The translations under genes were made by a program, and so were the position numbers. Below, one piece after another: positions 6,001 through 47,263 of a stretch of 47,403 nt of DNA. Position 1 is the stretch's first letter. Every line of letters starts with the position of its first letter. The DNA lies in IMG/VR virus record IMGVR_UViG_3300025864_000022, positions 1 through 47,403 of that record; one strand, 5' to 3'. The stretch comes from a virus. The notes below the pieces were generated by a model, which saw nothing but the letters and a program-made list of their open reading frames with translations, did no database searches and was not told the DNA's origin.

Positions 6001-6904
6001 TCTATTGGCTAAGTGCTTGTGTAGGATTGATGTGCTTCTATTTAACCATCCATCCATCCTTGACCTATTCCTCTTCATTATCCTATACAACTCCTTCACT
6101 ATCCTATAGGAGTGATTCTGGTACATCTTCAGTTACATCTCCTTCATAGACAGCTACTTTACCATCCATGTATTTAACATCCACATCTTCATGGTCTGCT
6201 AAGAGTCGAGGGGTTTCTTTGATTAATAAGTCAAAGTTGTCTACAATCTTCTCAAATTCAGTTCGTTGATAGTCTGTGAATGTATCAGCATCTTTACTCC
6301 ATTCAGTTAAATCCTCTTTTACTAAATCGTATATACCTTTAACCCCAACTTCCATGATAATTTCTTGTCTGGTAGAATTGGGTCTAATGTCTTTTTGAAT
6401 GTCACTAACGTATCTACTGAATTCCCTAGCTACTAAATTAACTCGATTAACCCTCATTTCAGGTCTATAGAGTTTGTCTAGTGGATTTGAAATGGTAATT
6501 TCTTTTATGTTGAATATGTCTTTGGCGATTTGTTCAATCTATTTAGTCTCTGCTTCAGTTTCTTCTACAGGAATGAATTTAATATCTTCATTCTCATTAT
6601 TCACTACTGAATACATTCCAGAACCATTGCCTTCATAATTTTCAATGAATATATGAGTACCTGTTTTAATTCCTAAATCCTCAATTTCTAAAGCGGCTTC
6701 TTGTTCAGTTTTAAATTTAATCTATTCGTCTACATTAGCCATCCCTAAATAATCCTTGAATTCTTCTTCTACAGGAAAATGCTCCTCACTAAATAAATCC
6801 ATCTAAGTTCCTATTTTAGCAGCAGCTACAACAGGATTTAGTCCTGTTGCTTTTGCTAACTTCATCACATCTCCACTTTTGGAGTATAAACAATTTTTTG
6901 CCAT
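1..6904 (-). CDS. Giant virion RNA polymerase (crAss-type, two-barrel), 3' end beyond window
   Basis: At least 2,301 codons, open at the left edge, so the C-terminus is missing. The frame runs unbroken from the ATG at 6904 once TAG is read as Gln. Around residues 1385-1415 it has a segment like the RNAP beta-prime active site: an RIPTEHKYSM stretch (compare RQPSLH in cellular enzymes), then AGTDFDADKLY with the triad D1408, D1410 and D1412 (genomic about 2670-2683). This is the metal-binding DxDxD signature of double-psi beta-barrel polymerases; crAss-like phage phi14:2 gp66, a virion RNAP injected to transcribe early genes, has the equivalent DFDID. The first ~1,300 residues show no domain I recognise and may serve packaging or translocation. 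It is last in the virion operon, 9 bases after the 1,965-residue cargo gene. Function is strongly supported by the motif and position; the exact domain limits are not. Confidence 0.88.
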
Positions 6905-6913
6905 AATTAATTA

Positions 6914-28835: not shown

Positions 28836-31201
28836 TCAAGCCTGCAATACAGCAGGAATCAAAGACATTGTTCGTGTCGGATCTAGTACGCAAAGACCCA
28901 ACGTAGCCATTCTGTGTATTACAGCAGAATCTTCATCAAAGGACATATAAGGATTACCCTTTTGACCAGTGAAAGGATTACGTAAACCCCATTGATATCC
29001 ACGATATTCAGTGTCACCTTTAATCTTACATTTGAAGATATTGGGTTGGTCCATTGTACCGATATACATGATATCATAACGATAGGACATAGCCACACCA
29101 CCAAGCGGATGCAAGATCTTATTACGAACTGGATCGTCATAGAAAGAGTCAACATCCAACTTAACACGAACTCCATTGGGAGCCTTATACTCAACGAACT
29201 GGAATCCAGCAGATAGAGCATTAGAGTGAAGTTTAGATTGAACTTTTTCAATAACACCAATAGAACTATTATCCAACATGAACTGAGTCCAACCAGAGAT
29301 AACATTCAATACAGCTTTGTGGAATGCAATAGCACCACGTTCACCAGTTTTAATTACAAAGTAACGATCACCAAAATCAAGTTTAGCAGCAGATAGTTCA
29401 TACAAAGCATCTTCCAGTAGTTTCAAACTAAAGGTGTTGTAATACATAGTATTAGCAACTTCCATTTGTTCAAACAAACCAGCCCCAGTCTTGATGACAT
29501 TACCTGACTTACCAAAGTTCATATATTCACCATTGGAATTTCTGTTAGAAGTACCAAAAGCAAGTACATTGTTTTTATATTCAGAGAACTATTGTTCTAC
29601 TTCCCAATCTACATTGTGCATCCACATCGTAGCAATATCCTTAGTCAAACCACCACTATCTGTGGGTTTTGTAATAGGAATACCTACTGCAAGTTTTTTG
29701 TTAAGCATGTTACCACCAACCTTGTGCTGAATACGAATCTGAGACCACTCATTACGCATAGAGACAGGAGAGGTAAACCTAACATCACCAACTTTTCTAG
29801 AGAATTCTTTTTCTACAGGAGCAAAGTCAATAGAGAAACGTTCACCCGAAAGCAATCGTTCTGCAGGACAACCTGTAGTGTTACCACCCATAAGTTCAAC
29901 CTTATAGACAGCGTTTGTACCTTCCATACGTGCATCACCAAGGATACGGAATGGATAGATCTGATTCAAGTGACCTACGATTACTTCACCATCGGCGAAC
30001 CAATCTTCTGGGAATACTAGATAGAACGGAGCAGTACCTACCCCTGAATTGCTAGAAGCTGATGTAACAACTACACCATTTTCATCTCGTGCTTCTACTA
30101 GAGGAATATTCCTACGAGAGGAACCAATTACATCCCAATAGTATTCACTATCATCCTCAAATTCCCTTGTAGGAAATTGATTCAGGAATGTATCCAGACT
30201 CTTACCTCTGTAATAAGCTAACAACTATACCATGAGGTTAGTTGCTTTTTGGGGAGCCAACTGAAAAATTGAACCTAAGTGATTGTCTTTAGTTAACATT
30301 TGTTATCGTAAAGGCTTTTTATCCTCTACTTCTTACAATTTATCATCTTGTAAGCTCAGCATATATCTTCACCCCAGTAGGGTGTCGTGCACTCGTGGAA
30401 GCTTATATTCTATTTGATGATATAAACATGATTTCCTAAAAGTAGAATAAGGCATATTAACTTGCTTTGCTGCAGATCTCATACTAAAGTTATTGTTAAA
30501 TAACTCTAGGATCTCAGACTTGCTAATCGTATTGTATTTACAATTAGTTAATCCCCTTTTTCTAATCTCGACTTTTTGATTAATTAACTCTGTATAGATT
30601 ATATATCTTGTGACTTTGAAATGTTCTCCCAATTTCTCAAGAGTCCAATTCTAATTCAAGTATAAATCCAATAGTAATTCTGTGTCGATGATTTGTCTTT
30701 TAAACCTTGGTGTGTTACCACCAATACTTACATTGTATCCTTTTGTCTTATCTGTTGAATCAAATAAGTCTATGTAATAGACTTCTCTTTCATCAATTTC
30801 TTCTAATAAACAATTCTCTAATAAATCCATGTAGAAGTTTTCCTTCCCATGTTTTTTCATTGCTCTGTTTATAAGTTGACTTCCATAATCACTGTGTCTC
30901 AAATGTTCTTTCCATCTGAGTTTCATGTCTACTTTTGTCTAACCCACATAAACTTTGCTGTTAGAATTGTTCCTGATAATGTAAATAAATCCTGTTTTCA
31001 TAAATAGTTTCATCTTCTATGCGTTACGGTGGCTACACTTATTAGGGTGTAGTTTACCTCGGTATTGCCCATTTGTAGAAGGGTTTCACCGATTTTGCGC
31101 GATGTTTACCTGCATGTTACCATGTAGGGAGGCTTAACGTAAGGTCAACCTTTCCAATGTTGGAATCCTACCATTTGGTATTTACCCAATTTACCTGCCA
31201 T
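28836..31201 (-). CDS. Major capsid protein (HK97-fold, crAss-like), 504 aa, split by a group I intron
   Basis: Exon 1 is 31148-31201 (18 codons, MAGKLGKYQMVGFQHWKG); exon 2 is 28836-30296 (486 codons plus stop), resuming LTKDNHLGSIFQLAPQKATN. Joined, they give a normal crAss-like capsid N-terminus and the expected length of about 500 residues. Exon 2 has TAG codons at 30225-30227 (in LMVQLLAYYRGK) and 29589-29591. It ends in TGA followed directly by TAA, then a strong terminator. It sits downstream of the scaffold gene, as usual. The intervening 851 bases contain stops in this frame and do not encode capsid sequence, so splicing is needed for a full-length product. Identity is supported by motifs and order; the exact splice bases are inferred from restoring the frame. 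Confidence 0.93.
30297..31147 (-). mobile_element. Group I self-splicing intron in the capsid gene
   Basis: 851 nt. The 5' exon ends in GGT (U before the splice site, as in group I introns) and the intron ends in G (30297), both diagnostic. A candidate P1 pairs the exon end AGGU with GCCU at 31130-31133. A core hairpin resembling P4-P5 is at 31060-31091 (CGGTGAAACCC with GGGCAATACCG on the minus strand), and near the 3' end is a GAAGATATA element typical of the P7/P3 region of group I introns. A homing endonuclease gene occupies most of the interior. Splicing here restores the capsid frame exactly. Subgroup not determined. Confidence 0.85.
30369..31013 (-). CDS. Intron-encoded GIY-YIG homing endonuclease, 214 aa
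   Basis: The N-terminal catalytic module shows the GIY-YIG pattern: GFIYIIRNN (residues 8-16) and KVYVGQT (20-26), followed by basic RWKEHLRH. The metal-binding Glu of the family is probably within the EIDEREVYYIDLF segment. The C-terminal half carries helix-turn-helix-like DNA-binding repeats (SKSEILELFNNNFSMRSAAK, then QVNMPYSTFRKS), as in intron-homing enzymes. Two TAG codons are read as Gln, one being the conserved Gln of the YxGQT motif (30939-30941) and one at 30651-30653. So the endonuclease is adapted to the phage code rather than newly arrived. An alternative start is the ATG at 31001. It should spread the intron into intronless capsid alleles. Confidence 0.87.
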
Positions 31202-32476: not shown

Positions 32477-32914
32477 TTATACATTCAAATAAAAGGAATG
32501 ATTTCTATTTCCTTTCTTTTTTGATGCTAAATGTACCCATGTCACACCCGTCTTTGTATTCTTTTCAGCAATTAACTAATCAAATGAGATATGTAAGTCC
32601 TTTAGAGCCAATAGAATTAGATTAAAAGCTTCTTTAGTAGTCTTACCTCTAATTCCCACATCAATAGCTGTCCCAGATAAGTGTGCAGAATTAGAAACCC
32701 CTTTAACTGCTTTATTCAGTTTAGGACATCTGTACCAAGAGGTTATATCAAATGGAATTCCTATTCTAGTTCTAATTGGCTATAACACTGTATCTGCAAA
32801 CCAATCTGCATCTTTCTCAATTAGTTTAGGCATTGAATTATCAATCTTTAATTCTATTGCTTTACTAGATCTGGTTGCTTCTTCTATTGAAAAGTTTTCA
32901 CTTAAATGACTCAT
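32477..32914 (-). CDS. Endolysin, peptidase M15-type, 145 aa
   Basis: Contains the zinc peptidase M15 pattern: DITSWYRCPKLNKAVKGV, then SAHLSGTAIDVG with H78 and D85 as ligands, and TWVHLA with H128 as the third. These L,D- or D,D-peptidases cut peptidoglycan stem peptides; phage versions of about 145 residues act as endolysins and in Bacteroidota phages usually lack a signal peptide, as here. TAG codons occur after DTVL and at SFDQLIA. It is the last gene of a compact lysis cassette, two bases after the holin-like gene. Without the recoding no gene would be called at this locus. Confidence 0.88.
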
Positions 32915-32916
32915 AT

Positions 32917-33345
32917 TTATTTAAGTAAATGCATTATTAAAACTGTAGCTAATGCTCCAAGGGCTACAGAATATAAAGAAACTGTTACCCAAAAATTACC
33001 AACTTTGTTTTCTAAAGAGCGAATTCTTTTTTCTCTTGTAGTATATAAATCCATTTTCAAATCATCAAATTCCTTCTTATCGGCTTTGTCTTTTTCTAAA
33101 TCATCAATTCGTTTAGATGTACCACTTTTTAGTTCTTTGATATCTTCACTAAGTCGATCAATCTATGTACTCAATTTAATGAGTAAATCGTGGTCATCTG
33201 ACCCTTTTACACTAGTTACTTTTAAAGCTTCTGCAGCGGCATTAGCTATAACTGAAGCAGCCTTTGTAGCTGCATTACCTATTACGTCTAATGCTTTATC
33301 CTAAGCATCCTATAATTCTTTGTGAGCTTTCTCTGCTGCCGTCAT
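32917..33345 (-). CDS. XhlA-like holin-associated membrane protein, 142 aa
   Basis: N-terminal Ala/Lys-rich helix, a central coiled coil (STQIDRLSEDIKELKS, then RIDDLEKDKADKKEFDDLKM), and one C-terminal membrane segment (FWVTVSLYSVALGALATVLI) ending HLLK. A coiled coil followed by a single terminal transmembrane helix is the architecture of the XhlA family, which helps holins release endolysins. TAG codons at residues 12 and 15 and in STQID. Its position between a spanin-like gene and an M15 peptidase supports a lysis role. It could be the holin itself, since no other obvious holin lies in the cassette. Confidence 0.7.
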
Positions 33346-33388
33346 ATTGTCCTCATTTTTATAAGTGTTTTAAAATTATAAGATTAGT

Positions 33389-34069
33389 TTATTTGGTAAT
33401 TAATATGCCTAAAACTATTCCCGTACCCAATCCTATCCATCCTTTATTCTTATTGAACCAATTATTTTGTTTTGTTAATTGTTTCTTCAAATCATTGTTT
33501 AAATCTTCTCTAACTTTCAGTAAATCCACTTTACTTTTAATTGTCTAATCTTTTATAAGATTCTCTTTGTTACAAGAACCCCATCCTATACTATCTGCAG
33601 TAACTACTAAATCTAATTCATTAACTGCCTCTCCAAGGGCATAATTCTCATCTATAAGACCCTCTACCTAATTCTGATATGCATTAACTACTTCTATACA
33701 ACCTGCATCTAAGGAGTCTCCATATTGAGTCAAGAGATCTTTTACTTTTTTCTATAGACCCTAGTTCTATTTATTTAAACCATTCGCTTTAGATTCCCAC
33801 TAATCTGCTTTCTTTTTAGCTGCATCACTCTTAGCTTTTTCTATTTTCTAAATACTGTCCTATAAGATTATCAACTATTTATTATTTGCGTCTGTAATAG
33901 AATCCCTTAACGTTTGTGTAGCATTCTATAATTCTGTCTAAAAGAGTAATTTCTAAGTCTATTTATAATTTGCATTACTACAGGTAAATGTGATGAATAT
34001 TAATAAACCACATAAACCTATACTAACCCATTTCCAATATTTTTTTATGAAATCGAGTATTTTTTTCAT
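33389..34069 (-). CDS. Spanin-like membrane-anchored coiled-coil protein, 226 aa
   Basis: An N-terminal membrane helix (residues about 14-29, WVSIGLCGLLIFITFT) is followed by a long Gln/Lys-rich coiled coil and a C-terminal hydrophobic segment (GWIGLGTGIVLGILITK). The cassette position and shape suggest an inner-membrane spanin or holin accessory. CSN follows the first helix, so a lipoprotein is not excluded, though the lipobox is imperfect. By my reading 13 of its 18 Gln codons are TAG, one of the highest densities in the window. Read with the standard code it breaks into fragments of at most a few dozen codons. Ends in TAA. Confidence 0.68.
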
Positions 34070-34283: not shown

Positions 34284-36479
34284 TCAACTCATCTTATACG
34301 CTGAAAAAAGGCTTTTATTATCAAATATATATTTTACCAATGATTTAAACACAACATTCGCCAATGCCAAATACCCGATTGTTCCAAAATGTGTATTATC
34401 GCCGGGCAAATCGGGGTGGTAGTCCGCATTTGTCAAAACATCAATATCGTTTTCCGTAAAATTGACAACAGGAATACCATATTTTGCCCCAATTTTGTAA
34501 ACAACATCCCATGTTCCCGTTCCGCTTGTACTCCCTGGTATTCTTGAGAGGAGCATTATTTTCAAATTGGCATTTTGCGCCAACATTGCTTCAATAATCT
34601 TACAATAGGTACCCGTATTCGTGTCAGCGTAAGTATTATAATCTCCAGAAACCGTATCAGCCACAATAGTATCTGTTAGTCCTTCGTTTTCTCCCAAATG
34701 AATAACCGCAACATCGTAGTCTGCATAATCATAAAGTGCAAACTTATTTAAATACCACGTTTTAGGCGTGTACCCCCCAACTCCTGAATTTTCAACCGTC
34801 CACCCTGTCAGTTTCGCTAAATAATGAGGGTATGATTGATTTGGGAACGTTACATGATCACGTACACCGGCCGTGATACTATCGCCAATACAGATAGCCG
34901 TATCAAAAATGGCTTTACAATATTCAGATACTAAAAATTTAGTCTTATTGGCATCCTCTATAGTTTCAGAAAGAATATCATAATCATAATTGGCAATGAC
35001 CACTAATTTTGCACCCGTCAATACTGACCCCCGTAAATAAACTGCGCTCGTAGGTCTTGTGAGCGTAGCATTTGCCGCACCCGCTTCGTACATTGTCGGC
35101 AATGTATTATAATATTTATCGTAAAAACATAAATATGTATTATCATTCGGTGAGTGCCCGCTAACCGTTATGTTTGCTTGCCCCTTTATATTGATATATC
35201 CAGTTAAATCATACCCAGCATTAGAAGTCTCTACTCCATTGGTATATAAAAACCAACCGGATGTATATCCAACGTTCGCCGCTAAATCAGCATTTTTAAA
35301 TTGATATGTATTATCTGCTAATTTTGTAAAATTGTCCGATAAAGTTTTTTGGCTTGCGGGTTCTTGTATCGATGTTCCAAGCGTTAATAACGGGCTTTGT
35401 TTAAAGCAATTATTACCAATAATTAAGTCCGGTTCTGTCGCATTTAAATTGAATGCTGTATTTAAGGGTAAATCATCAAAATCTATTTGAGCGATCATAC
35501 GTTTTACGCCTACCGTCGCATCCCAAATAAATGCAACCCCATCAACAATACCCAATGAAGCCTTTGTTTTAGACCCCGTATCGAAAACGTCAGACCAAGA
35601 TCCTCCCGAAAAAGCCGAAATAATTATGCGATAATAATGATCAACGGAATAATCAATAAATAACAATTTAATCTTATGTGGTAGCGAAGAATCAAATCCG
35701 ATAAGATTTAATTGTTTAAATGCCTTATAGTACTCCCTTCTACGTATTATACCATCTGGCCCCAATGAGTCCAATGTGCTTAAATCGCTATTATATCTTG
35801 CGAAACATGGGTATTGGGTATCCCACATAACATTCACCGCATTTCCACACGGTACATTCACTAAACTTGTAGTAACCGTTTGCTCAACCCCCAAAGCCGT
35901 CTGATAATCACCCCCAGCCTCAAAAGCTGCACCACTGAAATAATTCCACTTGCCATCATCAATAGTGACGTAAGTATAAGCATGGTCGGGGTCTGCCGTG
36001 TTTAAAGCCGCTAAATCCGCATAGACGCCTTTCGGCCCACCTGAAACAATCGCTGCGGCTGCATCCCTATAAAGCAATGTTTGGGCTTCTGCGTCTTCGG
36101 TAATGCCTTGGGCTGTTTCGGATGCGGTCTGTGCGGTCTGTGCTAAAATACGGTCAGCACTTGCTTCTCCTGCTTTAGTTGTTGCAATCCCCGCTTGTGT
36201 AGTTGCGGTCTATGCATTTATACCTGAATTCGTTTCATGTGTTCCTGCACTTAAATCGTGGTTATGTGCATTATTTTCGCTCTATAATGCGTCATCTTTA
36301 GCAGTATTCATTTCCACTAAAATATCATTAATTTCTCTTTCTGTGAGAGCTACTTTTTCCCAACCAGTATCTCCAAAAGCCCACAATGTATTTTCAATAG
36401 GCCCTTCTTTTAACCACATCACATTAATGTTATCAGGAGGATAACTAGATTTTACAATTTTTTCAATTATTGTTCCCAT
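34284..36479 (-). CDS. Tail fibre with SGNH/GDSL hydrolase domain, 731 aa
   Basis: N-terminal ~65 residues (YPPDNINVMWLKEGPIENTL, then WAFGDTGWEKVALTEREIND) form a virion-attachment region, followed by an Ala/Thr/Gln coiled coil (QTAQTASETAQGITEDAEAQ), a repeat-type unit with VYADLAALN and YTYVTIDDGKWNYF, and a beta region. The C-terminal ~210 residues are an SGNH hydrolase: GDSITAG (catalytic Ser about 534), NSGVGG (564-569), LGENEG (595-600) and DNTHFG (His about 697). Such domains deacetylate or de-esterify surface polysaccharides. TAG codons occur only at 36282-36284 and 36210-36212; the remaining ~640 codons have none, and are clearly less AT-rich. It ends in TGA. The start overlaps the portal end by 17 bases. 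Fibre identity is inference; hydrolase is well supported. Confidence 0.85.
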
Positions 36480-38889
36480 ATAAATTATTTACTGTTTTCT
36501 TTTGTATTTTCTTAATAGCCAAATCCTTCTCCTTTAGATTCACATCATCTGTGTGAACCTATTTATCATGTGCTAACTTCAAATCAAATTGGCGAATTTT
36601 CTCGTATAAGACATCTTTATCTTTCTATGAGTATTCTTCTGGTTCTTGAATTCCATCATCAACTGGTTCTGCATTTGCATTTGCACCAATATGTGCAATC
36701 AAAAGTTTAGTTTCATTATCTCTTATATTCGCAGATTCCTTCTATTGAAGTTCTTGTATCTTAAATTCATTCTGTGTTTGTATCAGTTGCTATTGAGCCT
36801 ATTGTTCTGCCTATTGTGCCTATGCCTATCTTTCCTATATGGATTTTTCATCCTTTTCAATAAGTCTTTGTTTCTCAGAGATAGAACTAGAACTATACAA
36901 TTTCATGATTGTTGAAAAAGAAAGTGTTTGATTCTATAAAGCCGCTTGAGCAAGTGTGTCTAATTTAGCAGATAACTATTGCATTCCATTACCATTGTCT
37001 ACTACTAACCCATAATCAGATTCAGCAAATTCATCTCCATCAATGTCCATCATTTTCATGGAACCGTCTGATAGGATATATTGGAACTTCTTACTTCTTC
37101 CCTTCAATGCTATTTTAGCCGTTTCAAGAAATGCTTCTAAGACTCTTTTCTTTACATCTTCATGTATAACAAACAACCATTCAGTTATATGTGAGGATTG
37201 CAGATTAGATCTTTCAACCCCACCTACAGTTTCTCTATTACTTACTTGTCCTTCTCTCTATGGTGATATACCAGCAACCTCTCCCATTTCCATTTTAATG
37301 AATGCTAAGAGGTTTATTTGTTGTTCTATGTAATTACCTGTTTCTGCATCAATCACTCCGTTAGAAGCATTATTCATGGCTCCAGCGAGTTTTCCTGTAG
37401 CAGCACCAATATTACCTTCTTTAAAACTATCTGTTACAGAGATATGATTCACTTTTGCATAATACATCCATTTCTCTACATCCCATCCTTTAGGAACTTT
37501 AGCTAAATCTAAGGATACAATTTTACCCCAATTAGCAGCCATTGCTTTATTTAATCTATCGTGAATTGCATCATATAAGTAATTGTATGGTTTCATCATA
37601 TCTACAAGAGAGAATGGTCTACTATCATTTAAATTATAGATTGATCCAACAATACCAAAATGACATCTCGATGGATTACTTAATCTATTGTATTGAATTA
37701 CTCTGGGACGCATATTTACATATATGTCATCACCAATATGAGTACCTTCCCATGCTTCATTAATATAATATATAAATTCTTCTTCACCCATGTCCTTATT
37801 AGTTTCATAAGTCTCTGGGTAAAAGGTAAATACCTCTGACCCATCTTGAGGATCATAAGATTTAACCTTTTTAATCTTTCTTTTAGACTTCCAATACATT
37901 TTGACAACCCTCAAATTGCCGGCCAAATCATATGGAAGTAATGTATTAGATATAGAATCTGAAAATAGATTCATTGGATCAAAGTAAAATCCATTACTAG
38001 ATAACTCTTCACCAACCATATTATTGTTTACATAACCAAATCGTTCATCTATATTATCCATAGAATCTACTGCAGCCTATCCTACATGGTCGGGCATCTT
38101 ATCAATATAATCAATATCCTTTTTGGTAAGCACATCATAGAATGTATCTATAACTTTACTAGGACTCCAATAGTCTTCTATTAATATAATATCAGCATCT
38201 TCAATTCTATTTGAATAACCAGATTTAAACACTCTGATTTTCAATGGATTAACTCTTTCAAGAGTTGGTTCACCACCTATAATATCACACTGATAAATTT
38301 CTTCACCAGTAATCATACCATCCATGAATCCTTGATTAAATAAGAATGGAATATTATACTCTTTTATATAATGATTCAATAACGCATTACCCCTAACTTC
38401 TCTCATATCCTACCAGTCGTATGTGAAATAGTCATTCATTTTATTGAGTGACTAATCATATTCGTCTTGACTCTATGAGTTATTTGAAACCAATTGCTAG
38501 AGATTCTATACAATTTGTTTCTTCTTATTCTCTTCAATTTCAGAGATTGCATTAGGATTAGTCACAACAACTTTGAAATCAAATAATCGTTTTGATTCCT
38601 CTCCCCTAAGTACATTCAATTTTGAATTGATTATAGGGTAATGTTGAATTTTGTCTGGCACATAACCAGCTCTCACATTCTCTGGATTCAGAACTAATTC
38701 TAAATCAGACATATGTATCTTACCATTCAGTAAATCATAATTGATTTTTTTGTGAATGACAGTCTTTCTTACAAGACTATAATTAAAGAATGTTTTGGAA
38801 TCTGCCCATTTGACGCATTTGCGCCTCCATTCTTTATTCTTCTTACTAAAGGGTAACTATTGTGGTGGAAAGTTTACTAAACCAGACAT
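36463..38889 (-). CDS. Portal protein (crAss-like), 808 aa
   Basis: Starts MSGLVNFPPQQLPFSKKNKE, a typical crAss-like portal N-terminus, follows TerL and runs across at least fifteen TAG codons to TGA. The core is alpha/beta with the usual long helices; after about residue 640 comes a Gln/Lys/Glu coiled-coil tail (QERQAQAQQAEQQAQQQ) in which six TAG codons fall within 16 codons (36790-36837). The portal forms the dodecameric head vertex ring for DNA entry and exit. A promoter lies at 38912-38942 in the gap after TerL, so portal and fibre can be transcribed separately from packaging genes. Overlap with the next gene is 17 bases. Confidence 0.88.
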
Positions 38890-38971: not shown

Positions 38972-41254
38972 TTACTTTTTATTAAATACATCTCCAAATC
39001 TCTAATCATAATTAACTTTAAAGAACTAATCGTTCCCTAAATAGCTTGCTTCTGACTCATCAGATCGGGATGAAAGTAGATTTCCATTATACATAATCAT
39101 TTTATCCTCTCTTAGAAGCATCAGCATTATATTAGAAGACACCCTATCAAAGTTACCTTCAGAATTATATCCTATAAGTTCTTTAATCAGTGCTCTACAT
39201 CTAATGTTGAATAAGTTAGGCATAGTGACTTCCTATTCCTCACCATCAATCAACTCAACTCTAACAATAGGTTTGAGTAACCAATTTCGTAAAAGGGTTC
39301 TTCCATACGCATTTATAGGAGCTGTAGCCACAGTACCTTTAGCCTTATTCCCAAATGCACTTCCTTTAATCATATCTTTATCCTTTAGAAAGTCTAATAT
39401 ATCTGTCAATAGATACAAACTATTCATCCTTGAGAAATAAGCAAATAGACCCTTTTTATTATTTTCATAATTCATTCGTCCATTGTAGAATAGACAAAGT
39501 CGTCTAGCCATTTCATAGAAGTCATCAGCATACTAAGGTCTGCCTGTATATTCAGCAACGTAATTGTCTGTCCATAAGTCTAATACAAATATAGAACCTA
39601 AAGATAAAGTATCAGCAGCATCATCATCATATGGGTCAGCACTCAATATATATCTATTTGCAAAAATCTTACCTTGTTTATCCTTTTCAGGCATCTTATA
39701 AATCTCTAAAGCTCCATGAATTTTATTGTCCTTGTGTGGAAATTCTCGTATTGGTAGTTCATTACTAATCCTAAATTCAATTTCTCCAGTCTTACCTAAA
39801 GCTAATTCACCTACAAATACATCATCATATTCTCTAGGATTAGTATCTAATTGAACTAATCGTTCAGTCAAATCAGCCATTGGAAACATATTTACTCCAA
39901 CTTTGACAATAGCTTCAGCGGGAGTAATAGGTATTTCAGCAATGGTTTTAATGATTGTATTAGGATCAGATGAGTTATATTTAACTCTAAATCTGTTCTT
40001 TAAAATCTATATAAGAGCACTAATTACATCAGATACTCCATCTTTATTCATACAATCCTTCCTGTTAATATATCCAGGAAAGAAGAATACAAAGTCTTTT
40101 CGTCCTTGGTTAAATTTATCAAACACATTTGGTAGTGCATACATGTTATATCCTTTAGGATTATACATGATTTCCTATGCCCCAGCAAAGTCAGATTCAT
40201 CATCCCCAGCCGTACCCAACATATAGATCTATCCAAACGCAATATCACCTTCCTATACAGATGGCAAAAGTACATTGTACAAATCCAAGAGTCTAGGGAA
40301 TGTACCCATTTCCTCAATGAGAATGTCACAAGCACGCTTACCACGCAACTTAGATTCATCGTCATTAGAGGATACACCAATTACTGAATTACGAGTACCC
40401 TTTTCAATACCTAACTCTGAATCTTTATAACCTATTCGCCAAATCATTTCTTGCATACTATCTCTAAGACGCTTCCTAGGAAACTGTGTATGTTCTGCAC
40501 AGAAGTCAAGCATAGGTACAAACTTACTTAGAGTACCATCCTTACCAGATAGATACTCTTTTGTAGATGCTGTAATTACTGACATTGTTTTTTCATGAGC
40601 AATTTCATTCTCACCAATTACAATGTTGTGTGCAAGAATAGAGGCTAAACAATAAGATTTAGATTTACCACGACTAGCTAATTCAGCACAGTGCTGCCCA
40701 CCTTCCCAATCATTGTAGAGACCCCCATTTTTAGACTAATCCTTATAGTGGAATCTCCAATATACTCCTTCCCATACATGTGGGAAATCTTCAATACGAT
40801 TAGCACGTTTAGTCCCTTCAATGATTTCTGAAAGCATAATAGGACAATAGTTCAAATAGAAGTACATCAACCCTGTCACCCACTCACCATCAGACTCTCT
40901 CACATACCCATTCCAGCATCTATCTCTTTCTTGACGTATCCATTTACCAAATTCAGAATTAGGACTTGCATTTGGCTTTAATGTGGTTAGTACCTTATGT
41001 TTCTTGAAGAAGAGTGCTGTAGGTCTAAAATAATCCATATCTTGTAGTATATGTGGATTAACCAAATCAACTACAATTCTACCAGATTTATCTCTAGGTC
41101 TATCCTTAGCATAACCTCTTTTAGGATCTATAAGAGTCCTAACAAATGGTACATTGTTTAATACATCAATCAACTAATCCTACACCTCTTGTGGAAGTGT
41201 AGTGAGTAATTCATCGGTAATCTCAGTCTAATATTTATTAACTTGTATATTCAT
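38972..41254 (-). CDS. terL: Terminase large subunit, 760 aa
   Basis: Starts MNIQVNKYQTEITDELLTTL. The ATPase domain has Walker A in ELASRGKSKS (residues about 193-200) and Walker B in ACDILIEEMG (D310, catalytic Glu 314-315). The C-terminal RNase H-like nuclease domain shows SADPYDDD for its first acidic position, then FYNGRMNYENNK for a further Glu. The enzyme translocates and cuts DNA during packaging. Reads through seven or more TAG codons; two lie in the first 25 codons (41228-41230 and following). Ends in TAA. It starts two bases after the preceding gene's stop, so the two are coupled. Length fits crAss-like TerL proteins. Confidence 0.93.
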
Positions 41255-41860: not shown

Positions 41861-42292
41861 TTAAATAATAATACTCTTTTTAGGTGGGAGAATTACCTTT
41901 TGAACCACGGGTTCTGGATCGGCAACCTCTTCAAAATCTTCCACAATGAACTCCACATCTCGATCCTGTAAAAGAAGATATTGAATATCATTCATTGTAA
42001 CCACATCAAAATTATAACTAGTTGTCACATTGTCTCCTAACACACCATCTTGTAGAGAGCCTTCCTTGTGTTTCTTTACTGCGAATCGGGTAGGATTAAT
42101 ACATACCAAATCATCTACTTTAATCTCTCGTACAGCACCACCAATAGCAATTACTTTTTGATATTCTTTTAGTCCTGTCTTTGTTTTTGTGGGATCTATA
42201 ATTCCACCAGTTGTATATCTATCGGCCTCATACTTTTCCATCGATGTTATCAACGCTGTAAACATGGGCCTGATTTTCTTTATCTTTAGCAT
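41861..42292 (-). CDS. GroES-like (Cpn10-fold) protein, 143 aa
   Basis: The segment RPMFTALITSMEKYEADRYT, TGGIIDPTKTKTG, YQKVIAIGGAVREIKVDDLV, then CIN parallels the co-chaperonin layout: PL-DRVLV, a mobile loop ending in SGIILP, GEVVAVGPG, and VKVGDRV. The acidic/Pro C-terminal extension (VADPEPVVQKVILPPKK) is extra. Phage co-chaperonins help fold capsid proteins with host GroEL. It sits just before the packaging and structural genes, consistent with that. No TAG codons. The start at 42292 overlaps the previous gene by 65 bases; an ATG at 42265 just before FTALITS is an alternative start still within the overlap. Confidence 0.62.
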   Translation of the reverse strand: MLKIKKIRPMFTALITSMEKYEADRYTTGGIIDPTKTKTGLKEYQKVIAIGGAVREIKVDDLVCINPTRFAVKKHKEGSLQDGVLGDNVTTSYNFDVVTMNDIQYLLLQDRDVEFIVEDFEEVADPEPVVQKVILPPKKSIII

Positions 42293-42551
42293 TCTTTAAT
42301 TCAATTAATTTTTTGTTTCTCTCCTTTATTCTAGTCATTCCTTCATAGGTACAATTTAAATTGCCCAAAGATGGTAAATTAAAATTGGTTCTTAACTTAG
42401 AAAACTCTTCTTCAGTTAAATCTTCTTTTAATGGTAAAGTTTTAATAGTCTCTTTTATAAACTACCAATAAGACACATATGCCTTACTTACTTCATCTAT
42501 TGGGATATTTAATTCTTTTGAAATCTAATCAAACACAAATGAGTATTTCAT
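42228..42551 (-). CDS. Hypothetical protein, 107 aa
   Basis: Starts MKYSFVFDQISKELNIPIDE with TAG codons at residues 9 and 30; this is the first TAG-containing gene met when reading in the direction of transcription. Its ATGA start overlaps the previous stop. It is helical and Lys/Glu rich (EDLTEEEFSKLRTNF, then GMTRIKERNKKLIELKNAKD) and ends in TGA inside the GroES-like gene in another frame. An N-terminal helix followed by NIPIDEVSKAYVSYW suggests a small DNA- or protein-binding domain, but I do not recognise the family. Gene reality rests on the intact frame, the tight overlap and plausible composition. Confidence 0.6.
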
Positions 42552-42931
42552 TTCAATTCAAATAGTATTAATAGTTTAAATGTCCCTTCATCTTCTTCTA
42601 TAGTAGGAATAAATCTAGGGTTAATCTTATTATCCAATATAACTTTACCTTTTCTTAGTTTACCCATAATCACTTGAAAATGGGCAAGACTTATTTTACA
42701 TTCCTCTCTAACTTTACGTTTAGTTTCATCACTCATTGTTACTCTATCCAATATGTCATCATCTTTAATTACCTTACTCAAGGCATGTCGCTCTTTTACA
42801 AAAGCAGTGATAACATCAATTTCTCTCTCAGTTAAGTGGTGAAAGGGTTGTAAAAATTCAAACCAATATCTAAAAAATTTACCATCTATTGATGTAGGAA
42901 TGCGTACTACATTGTTAGCATTCTTACTCAT
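42548..42931 (-). CDS. Hypothetical protein, possible winged-helix type, 127 aa
   Basis: Begins MSKNANNVVRIPTSIDGKFF. The middle has LTEREIDVITAFVKERHALS and a later KISLAHFQVIMGKLRKGKVI; such spacing of helices resembles helix-turn-helix or replication-initiator-like domains, so nucleic-acid binding is a reasonable but unproven guess. It has no TAG codon. Ends in TGA overlapping the next start as ATGA. Part of a tight run of small genes that precedes the packaging block. Confidence 0.6.
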   Translation of the reverse strand: MSKNANNVVRIPTSIDGKFFRYWFEFLQPFHHLTEREIDVITAFVKERHALSKVIKDDDILDRVTMSDETKRKVREECKISLAHFQVIMGKLRKGKVILDNKINPRFIPTIEEDEGTFKLLILFELK

Positions 42932-42936
42932 GGTTC

Positions 42937-43212
42937 TTATACAGTTTCAGGTTCTACTTCAGGTTCTACCTCTGGTAGAGTAATGATTGCAGTAATCTCT
43001 GCAGCAGATGTTGCTACAAATTCTGGTAGAAAGTAATCAGAGAATTCCAATACTTTAAACAAATAATCCAAACGCTTAAATGCATTAGTCATATTAGCTT
43101 CTTGCAACTTGGTATACAATGTTTTAGATTGTTCACTAAGTTGATGGGCTACATTATTTAATTCCTCATAAGACATTTTTTCTTCCTTTGCCTTGTTAAC
43201 TTCTTTTGCCAT
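42937..43212 (-). CDS. Hypothetical coiled-coil protein, 91 aa
   Basis: Starts MAKEVNKAKEEKMSYEELNN. The first two thirds form an amphipathic helix (NVAHQLSEQSKTLYTKLQEA), and it ends with an acidic repeat EVEPEVEPETV. No TAG codon. It starts one base after the zinc-ribbon gene's stop and lies six bases before the next gene. Small helical proteins with this look occur next to packaging genes in crAss-like phages; I cannot give a function. Confidence 0.6.
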   Translation of the reverse strand: MAKEVNKAKEEKMSYEELNNVAHQLSEQSKTLYTKLQEANMTNAFKRLDYLFKVLEFSDYFLPEFVATSAAEITAIITLPEVEPEVEPETV

Positions 43213-43213
43213 T

Positions 43214-43399
43214 TTATTTTTTATTTAAAAATTTTGTACCATATTTTTGTTCATACATGTTTTCCCATGTAATAAAATCTACTGTTACTGTATCTGTGTT
43301 ACCACAATCATCACAGTAATCTGATTCATCAATAATTCTTATAGCTAGAGATAAACAATTCTTACAGTAGGTTACTGGTTCATTGTTGTAGTCCGACAT
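43214..43399 (-). CDS. Small zinc-ribbon protein, 61 aa
   Basis: Two CxxC knuckles, YCKNC (C12, C15) and YCDDCG (C29, C32), make a compact zinc ribbon, followed by an aromatic-rich tail with TWENMYEQKYG. No TAG codon. The start lies inside the end of the preceding gene (20-base overlap). Zinc ribbons of this size usually bind nucleic acid or act as adaptors. Confidence 0.66.
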   Translation of the reverse strand: MSDYNNEPVTYCKNCLSLAIRIIDESDYCDDCGNTDTVTVDFITWENMYEQKYGTKFLNKK

Positions 43400-43676
43400 T
43401 CTCTAGATGCTCTAGATACCTTCCATATATTTGTTTCTTTAATTCGTTAGTTACTCTGCTATGTATTCCTGTTCTCTTACTAGTATTTCCTCTATTGTTA
43501 AAAGGTTTATCTGGAGCAATCATTCCTATATTAGTCACATGCCCTCTCTTGATAGCTCTATTGACTGATTTGAACTTACTTATTGCTTCAAATGTTTTAA
43601 GTCCTCTAGTATCATTTAAATACTTCTCAAACTCTTCTTGAGTCATTGGCTCTCTTTCAATTACTTCTTCTTCCAT
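43380..43676 (-). CDS. Hypothetical basic protein, 98 aa
   Basis: Starts MEEEVIEREPMTQEEFEKYL: an acidic head followed by a basic middle (KFKSVNRAIKRGHVTNIGM, then NRGNTSKRTGIHSRVTNELK). The switch from acidic to basic halves is consistent with RNA or DNA contact. The start overlaps the upstream stop as TAATG, and its TGA lies inside the next gene. No TAG codon. Family not recognised. Confidence 0.6.
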   Translation of the reverse strand: MEEEVIEREPMTQEEFEKYLNDTRGLKTFEAISKFKSVNRAIKRGHVTNIGMIAPDKPFNNRGNTSKRTGIHSRVTNELKKQIYGRYLEHLENVGLQQ

Positions 43677-43807
43677 TACTTAAAGTATATAAGTGTATAA
43701 GACTTCTCTCCTTCTCTTACTATCTGAAATAGATTTTCCTTACTAAGGTTATTCTCATTTACAAAATTACATATCTCCCTATATGTATCTGCTTGAAATA
43801 CTTTCAT
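43676..43807 (-). CDS. Small hypothetical protein, 43 aa
   Basis: ATG at 43807 with GGGAGAG about eight bases upstream; ends in TAA overlapping the next ATG. It begins MKVFQADTYREICNFVNENN and ends with a beta-like EGEKSYTLIYFK. An in-frame ATG at 43822 would add MGEQK, with a TAG inside it, but the better ribosome-binding site favours 43807. The gene fills the gap between the Dps-like and basic protein genes exactly. Confidence 0.58.
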   Translation of the reverse strand: MKVFQADTYREICNFVNENNLSKENLFQIVREGEKSYTLIYFK

Positions 43808-43829
43808 TTTCTACTCTCCCATTGCCGTA

Positions 43830-44255
43830 TTAACCTTTTGATAGTTTAAACAAATATGTGAACTTATTCAAATCATGAATAAACACTTCTGTTTCACTCT
43901 TGATTCCTGACATTTCTGCTTTAATTTCAAGTCCATCGTAGAATGTAATTACCTTTTCTTTTAACCCTTCCAATGTGGATAGGGGATCAATATGCGAGCA
44001 AGCAACTCCTGAAATTACATTAGGAGCCATCTTACCATAAATTCCCATACAGTCTTCTGCAATAGAGTCTTGATAACCATCTAGAGTCCCTAATAGGTCG
44101 TCTAGTTTCACATGAATGTTTAGACCAAATGCAGCCCAGTGCATATTTTTAATTTTGGTTTTGTATCCCTCTAGGATGTTTAGGTAATTGATGAAGTATC
44201 CTACTCCAGAGTTGACCAATTCTTTATCTTTATATTCTTCAAAAAGTGTGTCCAT
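43830..44255 (-). CDS. Dps/ferritin-like protein, 141 aa
   Basis: Helical throughout, with LNILEGYKTKIKNMHWAAFG, then HVKLDDLLGTLDGYQDSIAE, a pattern like the Dps four-helix bundle where K-x-H-W and H-x-x-x-D positions build the ferroxidase site (compare LHWNVKG, H---LDE---D). This matches small Dps-like proteins (DUF5856 type) of Bacteroidota phages. It may bind DNA or iron, or protect phage DNA in the cell. No TAG codon. It starts one base after the exonuclease stop. Confidence 0.65.
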   Translation of the reverse strand: MDTLFEEYKDKELVNSGVGYFINYLNILEGYKTKIKNMHWAAFGLNIHVKLDDLLGTLDGYQDSIAEDCMGIYGKMAPNVISGVACSHIDPLSTLEGLKEKVITFYDGLEIKAEMSGIKSETEVFIHDLNKFTYLFKLSKG

Positions 44256-44256
44256 T

Positions 44257-45177
44257 TTATTTTGGAATTCTTGTTATTAATGATTTCATTTTTTCTTTGG
44301 GTAACATATTGACCCTACCTCTACTTACAGCTCCACATTTGCATCTAAACAACTCGTATTTAGCTGTTTGGGTGTAGTGATATCCATCTATTTTAGTAAT
44401 ATAAGTACTACCACAATTTGCACAAACGGGTTCGTTAGAGTCAATATACATACCCACATTTGGATGATTTTTAATCCAAGGTCTTAGTTTTAAATAGACT
44501 TCCTCTAGGATTTCTACATCTTTCTCATTGTATACATTCATATAAGTCAAAGACTCTTGATCCCCATCTAAACATTTAGACCACAATTCAAATCCAGTGT
44601 GAAGTTTATGGTCAATTCCAAAGTATCCTGCAAGAGCATCTAACTTATTAGAACTGAATCCAAATTGCTTTTTCACAACTTGCAGAGTATCAATCTGTTG
44701 ATAAGGTTTAGTAGGATTCAAACCATTTAATAGGAACCTACTATTGATTTTAGGTATGTCAAAATTATTACCATTGTGGGCAATTATAATATCCGCTTCA
44801 TTCATTACCTTCCAAAGAGATTTCATAATCCTTGCATCATCCTCTACTTTAACTTCTTCTGGAGTCAATACATCTGACATTACATCAACTGCAAACAACC
44901 ATTTAGCAGACCAAGATAAACAGAACCACTCTCCTATAGTTTGATCTAAATAAATATTCTGCTGCCATCTACCCCATACATAAGCTTTAAGAGGAGAGGT
45001 TTCAATGTCTAGGATAAGAATCTTAGGGATATGAATCGTCTCTTTTCTGATTAACTTTTTAGCTTGGTAAATAGTATCTCTTGTAGTCTTAAAAATTCTT
45101 GCCAATGAACCAGCCCCCATATTTAATAAATAGGGTTTTTTATTCATTACTTCAATAACTTGTTTTAATTCTGCCAT
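44257..45177 (-). CDS. 3'-5' exonuclease (DnaQ/PolB-exo type) with zinc ribbon, 306 aa
   Basis: An N-terminal ~45 residues with a helix-turn-helix look (AGSLARIFKTTRDTIYQAKK) precede an RNase H-fold exonuclease: ILDIETSPL (D57, E59), AHNGNNFDIPKI (N138, D140) and YNEKDVEIL (Y216, D220), the Exo I-III carboxylates of the B-type polymerase proofreading family. A C-terminal zinc ribbon follows (C252, C255, C279, C281). No polymerase domain is attached. It likely trims DNA 3' ends in replication, repair or recombination, or degrades host DNA. More than ten Gln codons, none TAG. Two bases separate its start from the upstream stop. Confidence 0.86.
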   Translation of the reverse strand: MAELKQVIEVMNKKPYLLNMGAGSLARIFKTTRDTIYQAKKLIRKETIHIPKILILDIETSPLKAYVWGRWQQNIYLDQTIGEWFCLSWSAKWLFAVDVMSDVLTPEEVKVEDDARIMKSLWKVMNEADIIIAHNGNNFDIPKINSRFLLNGLNPTKPYQQIDTLQVVKKQFGFSSNKLDALAGYFGIDHKLHTGFELWSKCLDGDQESLTYMNVYNEKDVEILEEVYLKLRPWIKNHPNVGMYIDSNEPVCANCGSTYITKIDGYHYTQTAKYELFRCKCGAVSRGRVNMLPKEKMKSLITRIPK

Positions 45178-45179
45178 TT

Positions 45180-45497
45180 TTATTTTTTTAGTTCTTCAGT
45201 TTTTACTTCAACTACAATCGCTTGTTCAGCAACGGGTGATTCTGTAACCTCTCCTTTTGGTTCAACCACAATGACTTTATCCACTACAGGAGGTTCTACT
45301 TGTGCAAACAAAAAGGTTGATATAGAAGTAGTTACAAAAGTTACAATACCTACAACCATAATTATAGTCGAATGTAATCCAAATGCAGCACATGCTGCGA
45401 TACCTGCTCCTAGAGAAAGAGAGATATCTCTAAATAGTTTAGCCCATTTCTTATATTTATCAGGAGTGGGTGCTTGAATTCTTTTAATTATATTCAT
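45180..45497 (-). CDS. Two-helix membrane protein, holin-like, 105 aa
   Basis: A basic N-terminus (MNIIKRIQAPTPDKYKKWAK), two hydrophobic helices (about residues 28-45 and 47-65) joined by a short turn, and an acidic Val/Glu/Lys-rich soluble tail. This layout fits small phage holins, but the gene lies far from the endolysin and among early-type genes, so a different membrane function is equally likely. It starts 18 bases after the tRNA-Thr 3' end. No TAG codon. Confidence 0.6.
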   Translation of the reverse strand: MNIIKRIQAPTPDKYKKWAKLFRDISLSLGAGIAACAAFGLHSTIIMVVGIVTFVTTSISTFLFAQVEPPVVDKVIVVEPKGEVTESPVAEQAIVVEVKTEELKK

Positions 45498-45515
45498 ATT
45501 AAATTTATTTAATTG

Positions 45516-45589
45516 AGCCTCTAGTAGGATTTGAACCCACGAACCCGCTCACTACAAATGAGCCGCTCTGACCACTGAGCTATAAAGGC
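45516..45589 (-). tRNA. tRNA-Thr (UGU)
   Basis: Complete cloverleaf: acceptor GCCTTTA with TAGAGGC, D-stem GCTC/GAGC, anticodon stem GCTCA/TGAGC with loop TTTGTAG (anticodon TGT), T-arm GTGGG TTCAAAT CCTAC. CCA is not encoded. It reads ACA, a common codon in this AT-rich phage. Confidence 0.93.
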
Positions 45590-45735
45590 CTGACTCCTCC
45601 GACTTTAGCTTTGAGGATATATACATGCGCTCAACACCATGTATAGCTAACTAGGGTCCTATCTAGAATGGCCTAGTGCACTCAACTGCGTTTGCTAGCG
45701 TTGACTCTAGTAGAGGCTGTGTTGGTACTATAAGA
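45590..45735 (-). other. Unassigned, hairpin-rich noncoding stretch between tRNA-Thr and the structured RNA
   Basis: No protein frame of useful length. It contains inverted repeats such as ATACATG/CATGTAT (about 45623-45654, 10-base loop) and TCCTC/GAGGA just before the tRNA, and several CTAG tetramers. Probably a transcribed spacer or RNA of unknown function. Confidence 0.4.
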
Positions 45736-45826
45736 TGAGGGGACTACGGAAGCACTTCTGCTCCCTAGCAAGTTTTATTATTTAATGTGGAGTTCCTCAT
45801 ACTCCATTACAGTTGTTGTCCCCTCA
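45736..45826 (-). ncRNA. Candidate structured RNA, three-way junction
   Basis: About 91 nt closed by an 8-bp stem, GAGGGGAC (45818-45825) with GTCCCCTC (45737-45744). Inside are two hairpins: GGAGT/ACTCC with a seven-base loop (45789-45805), and GGGAGCA/TGCTTCC with a four-base loop (45748-45765). It sits 19 bases after the suppressor tRNA, and is not a canonical tRNA because there is no D-arm or TTC T-loop. It may be a degenerate tRNA, a tRNA-like element or a new small RNA. Confidence 0.5.
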
Positions 45827-45844
45827 AAGATCTTTTAATTTAAT

Positions 45845-45918
45845 TGGTTGTCCCACCAAGATTCGGACTCAGACTAAAAAGGTTAGAGCTTCTTGTGCTA
45901 CCATTACACCATAGGACA
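45845..45918 (-). tRNA. Suppressor tRNA-Gln (CUA), reads UAG
   Basis: A 74-nt cloverleaf: acceptor TGTCCTA with TGGGACA, D-arm GTGT AATGGTA GCAC, anticodon arm AGAAG CTCTAAC CTTTT with anticodon CTA at 45884-45886, T-arm CTGAG TCCGAAT CTTGG, and an encoded ACCA end. The U1-A72 pair, G2-C71, U35 and the TGTAATGGTAGCAC D-region are features of glutamine tRNAs. It explains why TAG is sense in this phage. Unusual: the T-loop begins TCC instead of TTC. Confidence 0.95.
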
Positions 45919-45926
45919 GTATTAAA

Positions 45927-46319
45927 TCATCGTACTATAAAACATTCTTGAAGCATCTTATCCTTCTCTACATCATTGTATCCATTCCACAATTCAAAGA
46001 AGTCTACTCCGTTCTCATTGAAGAAAAGTGTGAACTTATCCATAGTAGAAGAGAAGTATACTTGTCCTTTAGAGAAACCAAATGTACAATCTTTTAAAAA
46101 TGATTGAACCAATTCTTTCCTATAGTCAGTCAATAGATAAATTCGCTCCTTTAAAATGTTATTGTATTCACTCATTGCTTTTACTTGTTCTATCAATAAA
46201 ACTTGGTGGTTAGGTGGAATAGTAATAAATTTTGCAGATTCTAGGAATGACAATAGTTTATTTAATTTATTGTCGAGTTCTTCTTGTTCAGTAATTAGAC
46301 GTAATTTGAAATCTTCCAT
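45927..46319 (-). CDS. crAss001_48-type protein, 130 aa
   Basis: Starts MEDFKLRLITEQEELDNKLN, then KLLSFLESAKF, LLIEQVKAMSEYNNILKERI. The pattern 'L--E--EL---I-KL--FL ... LL--Q--AM--Y--IL--RI' is that of a small helical family widespread in Bacteroidota phages and known as crAss001_48-related; role unknown. The C-terminal half here (FGFSKGQVYFSSTMDKFTLF) is extra. A promoter lies 25 bases upstream. The TGA stop is only 8 bases before the suppressor tRNA, so gene and tRNA are likely on one transcript. No TAG codon. Confidence 0.66.
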   Translation of the reverse strand: MEDFKLRLITEQEELDNKLNKLLSFLESAKFITIPPNHQVLLIEQVKAMSEYNNILKERIYLLTDYRKELVQSFLKDCTFGFSKGQVYFSSTMDKFTLFFNENGVDFFELWNGYNDVEKDKMLQECFIVR

Positions 46320-46343
46320 ATTTCTTTGTTTTTAATAATAAGA

Positions 46344-46374
46344 CAAAGGTAAGTATTTTTTTATTCTTATGCAA
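46344..46374 (-). promoter_or_regulatory. Bacteroidota-type promoter upstream of the tRNA operon
   Basis: Minus strand TTGC (46371-46374), 19 bases, then TACCTTTG (46344-46351), an exact TAnnTTTG box. It lies just before the 130-residue gene and may drive that gene, the suppressor tRNA and genes to its left. Confidence 0.75.
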
Positions 46375-46393
46375 TAGTATAAGTAAAATATAT

Positions 46394-47263
46394 TTATTTT
46401 ATAAGAATTAATTCATTTATTCTCTCTAAATTTATTGTATTAAAACATTCTTTTAATCCATTAAAATATATAGATGGTATATATTTATTATTTTTAAATT
46501 CATTATGTAGAATCTTTTCTAATTCATAAATTCTTTCTGGACAATCTTGATGGGTTTTAATTATATCTAAAGAATAAGGAAATCTTTTAAATCTATATTC
46601 AACATCCTTTGATGTTATTCCAATTTTATAAAAAGATTCTGTTTCATTAAACAATCTTATAATATACAACATTCCAATCCCATTTTTACAATTTCTCATA
46701 AATCCTGGTTTGCCAAATTGTTTTTTCTCATAAGAACATTTAGGACATCCTATACTTCTACACAATATGTTAGATGGGGTTACATAAAAGTCTCCATGTT
46801 CAGGACAAGTAATACAAACCTTTTCCCTACTATCTATAAAATCTAATTTGTCATAATTATAAAAATCTCCAAGTGTTGCTTTTATTTTCTCTTCTGTTTT
46901 ATACTTTCTTTCTGTGATAGAGAGTATTCTTTTTATAGTATTCTTATTATTTAATACATCTGATATGCTTTGTTTGGTTGTTATATTTGTTATAGAATTT
47001 TTTAGACACACAAAATCTTTATCTATGTCTATAATTTCAAAGCGTAAATTATTTGGAATAATAACATTTTCTCTAATATATCTTATTTTAGATTCCTTTG
47101 TCATTAAACAAAATGAATATTTATAACTACTGATTGTATCTTTTTTTATATAATAATAATATTTGTTTTTTCTAACTAACATTATTCCATCCTTTTCTTC
47201 TAAAATAAATAGATCGTATTTTTCTTCTAATCTTAACCAATAGTCTTCTCTTGTAAGTTTCAT
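46394..47263 (-). CDS. Free-standing GIY-YIG/T5orf172-type nuclease with zinc finger, 289 aa
   Basis: Residues about 150-176 hold a zinc finger (CITCPEHGDFYVTPSNILC, then GCPKC) like those in phage homing nucleases. After it comes a GIY-YIG-like catalytic part: GMLYIIRLFN (197-206), FYKIGIT (211-217), R224, and an ELEKILHNEF helix with a probable catalytic Glu. The first ~120 residues look like a separate substrate-binding region. It is not inside an intron and is likely a selfish homing nuclease. No TAG codons, but few Gln. A promoter-like element lies upstream. Confidence 0.72.
   Translation of the reverse strand: MKLTREDYWLRLEEKYDLFILEEKDGIMLVRKNKYYYYIKKDTISSYKYSFCLMTKESKIRYIRENVIIPNNLRFEIIDIDKDFVCLKNSITNITTKQSISDVLNNKNTIKRILSITERKYKTEEKIKATLGDFYNYDKLDFIDSREKVCITCPEHGDFYVTPSNILCRSIGCPKCSYEKKQFGKPGFMRNCKNGIGMLYIIRLFNETESFYKIGITSKDVEYRFKRFPYSLDIIKTHQDCPERIYELEKILHNEFKNNKYIPSIYFNGLKECFNTINLERINELILIK

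Follow-up and report, generated by a model that had tools for sequence, protein, structure and literature searches.

Gene content and affiliation of the phage fragment

The stretch of DNA analysed here (the window) comprises positions 1 to 47,403 of IMG/VR virus record IMGVR_UViG_3300025864_000022, and its main features are collected in Table 1. The terminase, portal and capsid proteins match crAss-like families. The large terminase (TerL), portal and major capsid protein (MCP) are akin to those of crAss001-group phages, with which the gene order is shared, and on these grounds we assign the window as a Steigviridae-like (Crassvirales) fragment. Among named phages, Kahnovirus oralis cr85_1 (Crassvirales, Steigviridae) is the nearest, and most of the window matches it in gene order. 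TerL is 69% identical to that of cr85_1 and 54% to that of crAss001; for the MCP, likewise with shared gene order, the values are 84% and 85%.

Table 1. Features of the window and the evidence for each.
Feature	Position	Strand	Evidence or remark
Two giant RNA-polymerase-module genes, 48 TAG each	2..12811	-	tblastn to cr85_1 RNAP genes; first gene cut by contig end
Major capsid protein, 2 TAG (codons 25, 237)	28836..30299	-	phrog_11589
Lysis cassette: endolysin M15 peptidase, holin-like, Rz-like spanin	32477..34069	-	phrog_894, weak phrog_1296, phrog_312, PF08291
Portal, 19 TAG	36463..38889	-	phrog_6547
Large terminase, 12 TAG	38972..41254	-	phrog_6681
Early-type segment holding tRNAs	41861..47263	-	gene TAGs: only two, in HU-like gene 42228-42551
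tRNA-Thr(UGU), CCA not encoded	45515..45589	-	ARAGORN, Rfam
Structured RNA, ~230 nt, directly downstream of suppressor	45596..45825	-	compensated pairs, RNAalifold, conservation
Second domain of structured RNA, ending in H-type pseudoknot	about 45596-45728	-	
First domain of structured RNA, three-way junction	about 45737-45825	-	
Predicted suppressor tRNA-Gln(CUA), CCA encoded, U1-A72, G2-C71, A73, C55	45845..45918	-	ARAGORN; Rfam; Gln-like body; kept in G001-G003
crAss001_48-like gene, TAG-free	45927..46319	-	Pfam PF21825
Bacteroidota-type promoter-like element TTG-N20-TACCTTTG	46344..46374	-	upstream of tRNA transcript unit

By terminase identity, the near relatives in IMG/VR are L002/G001 (98%), L004/G002 (94%) and L017/G003 (about 85%), together with L003; G002 is full-length, at 98,996 bp with terminal repeats. 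A terminase tree places this recoded clade beside a sister group of standard-code phages, comprising L005-L011, cr85_1 and bajarodcaudo virus. In-frame TAG codons are also found in the more distant members L012, L018 and L024, and another terminase relative, L015 (positions 1-2166), has five in-frame TGA and no TAG, which suggests that this member of the family has recoded TGA. Code changes therefore look repeated within the family, as described before for crAss-like phages (PMC7886860). A capsid gene 85% identical to that of the window was also found in contig SABI01000171.1 (L056) of a metagenome-assembled genome labelled Spirochaetia; this contig is probably a mis-binned phage fragment.

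TAG codons align to glutamine

The first-pass annotation of this DNA had proposed that TAG interrupts otherwise continuous frames and is read as glutamine. When TAG was read as sense, the fragmented frames merged into long abutting genes containing 247 in-gene TAG codons. The absence of genes ending in TAG is in part a consequence of the frame calling; independent support comes from the tight gene spacing and the lengths of homologues. In the standard-code phage cr85_1, TAG is the stop codon of 14 of the 77 annotated genes checked.

To assign the codon, the genes of the window were aligned to nine segments of standard-code relatives with TAG left as unknown, and the residues opposite TAG were compared with those opposite every sense codon as calibration. 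The log-likelihood of the TAG column profile was -577.8 for Gln and -657.0 for Glu, putting Gln ahead by 79 log-units. The same procedure recovered 50 of 53 control codons; the failures were ATG, TGG and TGT, with a single codon or few data. Gln occupied 37 of the 50 well conserved TAG columns, and at codon 25 of the capsid gene, in the peptide LMV-Q-LLAYY that the first-pass annotation had singled out, all eight standard-code homologues (8/8) carry Gln. TAG also exchanges mainly with the standard glutamine codons among recoded orthologues. Opposite window TAG codons, G002 has TAG at 130 and CAA/CAG at 42 of 229 positions, and G003 has TAG at 100 and CAA/CAG at 57 of 225. In the reverse direction, window CAG codons correspond to TAG in 13 of 45 cases in G002 and 15 of 42 in G003. 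Collectively, these sequence comparisons and the Gln-type tRNA body described below strongly support the reading of TAG as glutamine in this phage, as initially proposed.

A probable glutamine-type amber suppressor tRNA

ARAGORN called exactly 45845-45918 on the minus strand as a tRNA with a CTA anticodon, and the Rfam tRNA model matched 45848-45918 with 50.2 bits (E 6e-8, cut-off 29), so that the tRNA predicted in the first pass was recovered in place. The tRNA gene begins 8 nt past the stop codon of the crAss001_48-like gene. Its sequence, TGTCCTATGGTGTAATGGTAGCACAAGAAGCTCTAACCTTTTTAGTCTGAGTCCGAATCTTGGTGGGACAACCA, contains the anticodon and encoded CCA as originally read. The glutamine-type body proposed at the outset also held: with the anticodon masked, the mean similarity score to tRNAs of the phage group was 0.40 for the Gln isotype and 0.29 for the next, and the nearest body was that of a phage tRNA-Gln(UUG). 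Acceptor and body thus resemble tRNA-Gln of the same phage group. The tRNA-Gln(UUG) of standard-code cr85_1, L006 and L010 shares with the suppressor the 1-72 pair (U-A), G2-C71, base 73 (A) and a D-arm with GGTGTA, but has anticodon UUG rather than CUA and is only 66-72% identical. The suppressor is more alike to the other suppressors of its clade and to that of L064. Descent from the array tRNA-Gln(UUG) of the sister phages was considered; the positions are alike, but an identity of 66-72% is too low to show it.

The suppressor is kept in G001-G003, the three related recoded genomes that are the close relatives covering the locus. A paired change preserves its acceptor stem, with U3-A70 in the window and C3-G70 in G002. 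The T-loop starts with TCC (C55) and the T-stem contains two G-U pairs, as the first-pass annotation had noted; its further idea was that such a tRNA may charge or work differently, and different charging was not borne out. C55 is rare, occurring in 4 of the 141 tRNAs examined, two of which are suppressors of this clade (window and G003), but the suppressor of G002 has U55. Since one sister suppressor has U55, special charging due to C55 is not supported. C55 is rare but tolerated, and nothing pointing to different charging was found.

Other viral contigs also contained CUA tRNAs. In L059 (6899-7331), the anticodon loop of a Gln-like CUA suppressor tRNA is interrupted by a 359-nt group I intron, which ARAGORN bridges by joining the halves and Rfam scores as Intron_gpI at 38.4 bits (E 1e-7), short of the curated cut-off of 50; suppressor activity in L059 would depend on splicing. 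A limited literature search found no paper on an intron-split CUA suppressor of this kind. Gln-like CUA tRNAs of 88-90 nt with a long, class II-like variable arm occur in several phages (L057 1387-1476, L058 2321-2409, L060 103-192, L063 5232-5319 and L065 681-768), and two different CUA tRNAs adjoin in one phage, L061 (12025-12174).

TAG is concentrated in late genes

TAG codons occur almost exclusively in late genes, with the highest density in the lysis cassette (18 TAG against 5 CAA/CAG). TAG makes up 18 of the 23 Gln codons there, 225 of 572 in the other late genes and 2 of 41 in early-type genes; the difference between the lysis cassette and the other late genes is significant (Fisher p 3e-4). 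Both early-type TAG codons sit in the HU-like gene, and the same codons are conserved in G002. The split of the window is also seen in G002, where TAG is nearly absent from the entire replication module and abundant in the late module.

The promoter-like element upstream of the tRNA transcript unit resembles the Bacteroidota promoter consensus. It recurs at orthologous places in G002 (18229) and G003 (8229). Occurrences of the pattern total just 1.3-1.8 times those in shuffled sequence, so single hits prove nothing and the conserved position is the argument. Three further elements of the form TTG-N-TAnnTTTG lie on the minus strand upstream of late genes (16316, 32402 and 38912), again at orthologous places in G002 and G003. 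A T5orf172/DUF723 homing-type endonuclease gene (46394-47263) upstream of the tRNA operon is missing from the equivalent place in G002 and G003.

A conserved structured RNA adjoins the suppressor

The 255 nt that separate the suppressor from the tRNA following it contain no credible gene. Aligning the window, G002 and G003 revealed a two-domain RNA structure here. The imposed structure contains 8 compensated pairs in these three sequences, compared with 2.8 expected, and none of 500 shuffles reached 8; structures slid along the alignment gave 0-2. Paired cells amount to 97.8% in the structure and 35-49% when it is slid. The window sequence alone folds better than its shuffles (z -2.6). RNAalifold with no structure imposed returned 9 compensated pairs, partly in different helices, and favoured a helix at 117-124/159-167 that competes with the hand-drawn helix at columns 141-163; the fold at columns 117-167 is therefore uncertain. 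Overall, the helices are well supported by the three sequences.

Nothing else in the tRNA neighbourhood is as conserved as the first domain, which is 95% identical to G002 and 85% to G003; the suppressor itself reaches 85% and 80%. In G003 the flanking genes and the downstream tRNA are replaced (Met instead of Thr), and the RNA stays with the suppressor. Rfam scans of the RNA matched no family. A group I intron was rejected, as Intron_gpI found nothing in the window or L017 at E values up to 5; a comparable scan does score an intron in L059. An exact-pattern scan of viral contigs returned the same three contigs and no others. A looser scan gave 81 stretches, and covariance models fitted the same three contigs alone; these searches found the RNA in this recoded clade only. 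Low-scoring hits in cr85_1 (19.5 bits) appear fortuitous.

The structured RNA is undescribed and strongly conserved, and constitutes the new part of these findings. That it represents a new RNA family controlling the code switch of the clade is a tentative idea to which we give rather low confidence. If so, it may govern, for example, the maturation of the suppressor from a polycistronic transcript, as a counterpart by analogy of theta ribozymes, or alternatively may act in trans on host termination at UAG.

Proposed mechanism and alternative readings

We consider it very probable that the tRNA is a Gln-accepting amber suppressor that is charged by the host and gates the late proteins. The suppressor would share a transcript with early-type genes that lack TAG, probably driven by a host-type promoter, and be processed out of this polycistronic RNA. 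Host glutaminyl-tRNA synthetase (GlnRS) would then charge it with Gln. Profiles for release factors (PF00472) and GlnRS (PF00749) matched nothing in the four genomes, while the positive controls were detected; we infer charging by host enzymes because no phage GlnRS was found there. The charged tRNA would be brought to UAG codons in translating ribosomes. Position C34 of the tRNA is predicted to pair with UAG alone, and for that reason UAA and UGA would remain stops. Full-length late proteins would appear only once the suppressor has accumulated, a timing suggested by where nearly all TAG codons lie: in genes for the virion, packaging, RNA polymerase and, most of all, lysis. This distribution agrees with the view in the literature that recoding holds back late and lysis proteins (PMC7886860, PMC10136315).

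This mechanism demands efficient suppression. For a gene with 48 TAG codons, 90% efficiency per codon would yield 0.6% full-length product, and a 10% yield needs 95.3%. With 48 TAGs in one gene and no phage release factor, host RF1 must therefore be almost fully outcompeted. Ordinary competition with RF1 would hardly be enough, which implies a missing factor or the loss of RF1; nothing found here explains how RF1 is overcome. C55 and the G-U pairs could weaken the tRNA, which would count against the suppressor explanation.

Suppression might instead be partial by design, with most ribosomes stopping at TAG and the fragments or their ratio being what matters. The TAG density of the lysis genes would suit such a scheme, but moderate efficiency would leave essentially no product of a 48-TAG gene, and the first TAGs frequently fall within the first 10-40 codons; we regard it as unlikely. 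Somewhat less likely still is that the host itself reads TAG as Gln or has a suppressor, which the phage tRNA merely tops up. Many recoded crAss-like phages do lack a suppressor tRNA (PMC7886860, PMC10136315), but the family also includes sister phages with the standard code, among them cr85_1 with its TAG stops, and the close recoded relatives have kept the suppressor. A reading of TAG as Glu, Lys, Tyr, Trp or pyrrolysine is very improbable. It could draw on CTA tRNAs of odd shapes in other phages and on the 'Pyl' that ARAGORN prints for the suppressor, but this label is an anticodon-based name given solely because the anticodon is CTA. The body is that of a normal Gln-like tRNA, and the TAG columns align to Gln by the margin given above, with TAG exchanging for CAA/CAG in orthologues. 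Finally, the rarity of C55, two of its four occurrences being suppressors of this clade, might suggest a decayed, inactive relic broken by C55 and the G-U pairs, but this is scarcely credible given the paired acceptor-stem change and 247 TAGs that require a reader.

The first-pass claim of a suppressor tRNA that accounts for TAG read as glutamine is right, but this kind of recoding is already known for this phage family. The window confirms the known mechanism in a new lineage that has a clean standard-code sister group, which makes the clade useful for studying how code switches arise. Two testable questions follow: how more than 95% suppression per UAG is reached in a phage without its own release factor, and what role the conserved RNA beside the suppressor plays.

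Comparison with known systems

Theta ribozymes adjoin phage suppressor tRNAs, and CCA is encoded in just 4.5% of the tRNAs linked to them (PMC10879173). Like them, the structured RNA described here lies directly downstream of an amber suppressor tRNA in a recoded phage. In contrast, about 19 nt separate it from the tRNA, its topology differs from theirs, and the tRNA already encodes CCA. Taking an HDV-type fold with a cleavage G within 5 nt of the tRNA end as diagnostic, and judging by Rfam and sequence, we rejected a theta (HDV-like) ribozyme: the Rfam scans gave no HDV family, and the sequence after the suppressor CCA, ATTAAATT, has no cleavage G at the tRNA 3' end. The RNA occupies the place that theta ribozymes have in other recoded phages, yet is not one by position or motif.

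Code-15 (UAG=Gln) crAss-like phages with tRNA-Sup(CUA), including the Beta group / Steigviridae, have been reported (PMC7886860; reviewed in PMC10136315), in agreement with the first-pass statement that such recoding is known in crAss-like lineages, and proteomics has shown Gln at TAG in other crAss-like phages (PMC9523058). The window has the in-frame TAG codons aligning to Gln, the phage-encoded CUA tRNA, the late-gene confinement and the close standard-code kin of these phages, and we found no essential difference from them. Together, the window and G001-G003 form an added lineage of code-15 crAss-like phages, whose sister group is the Kahnovirus-like phages that use the standard code and have large tRNA arrays.
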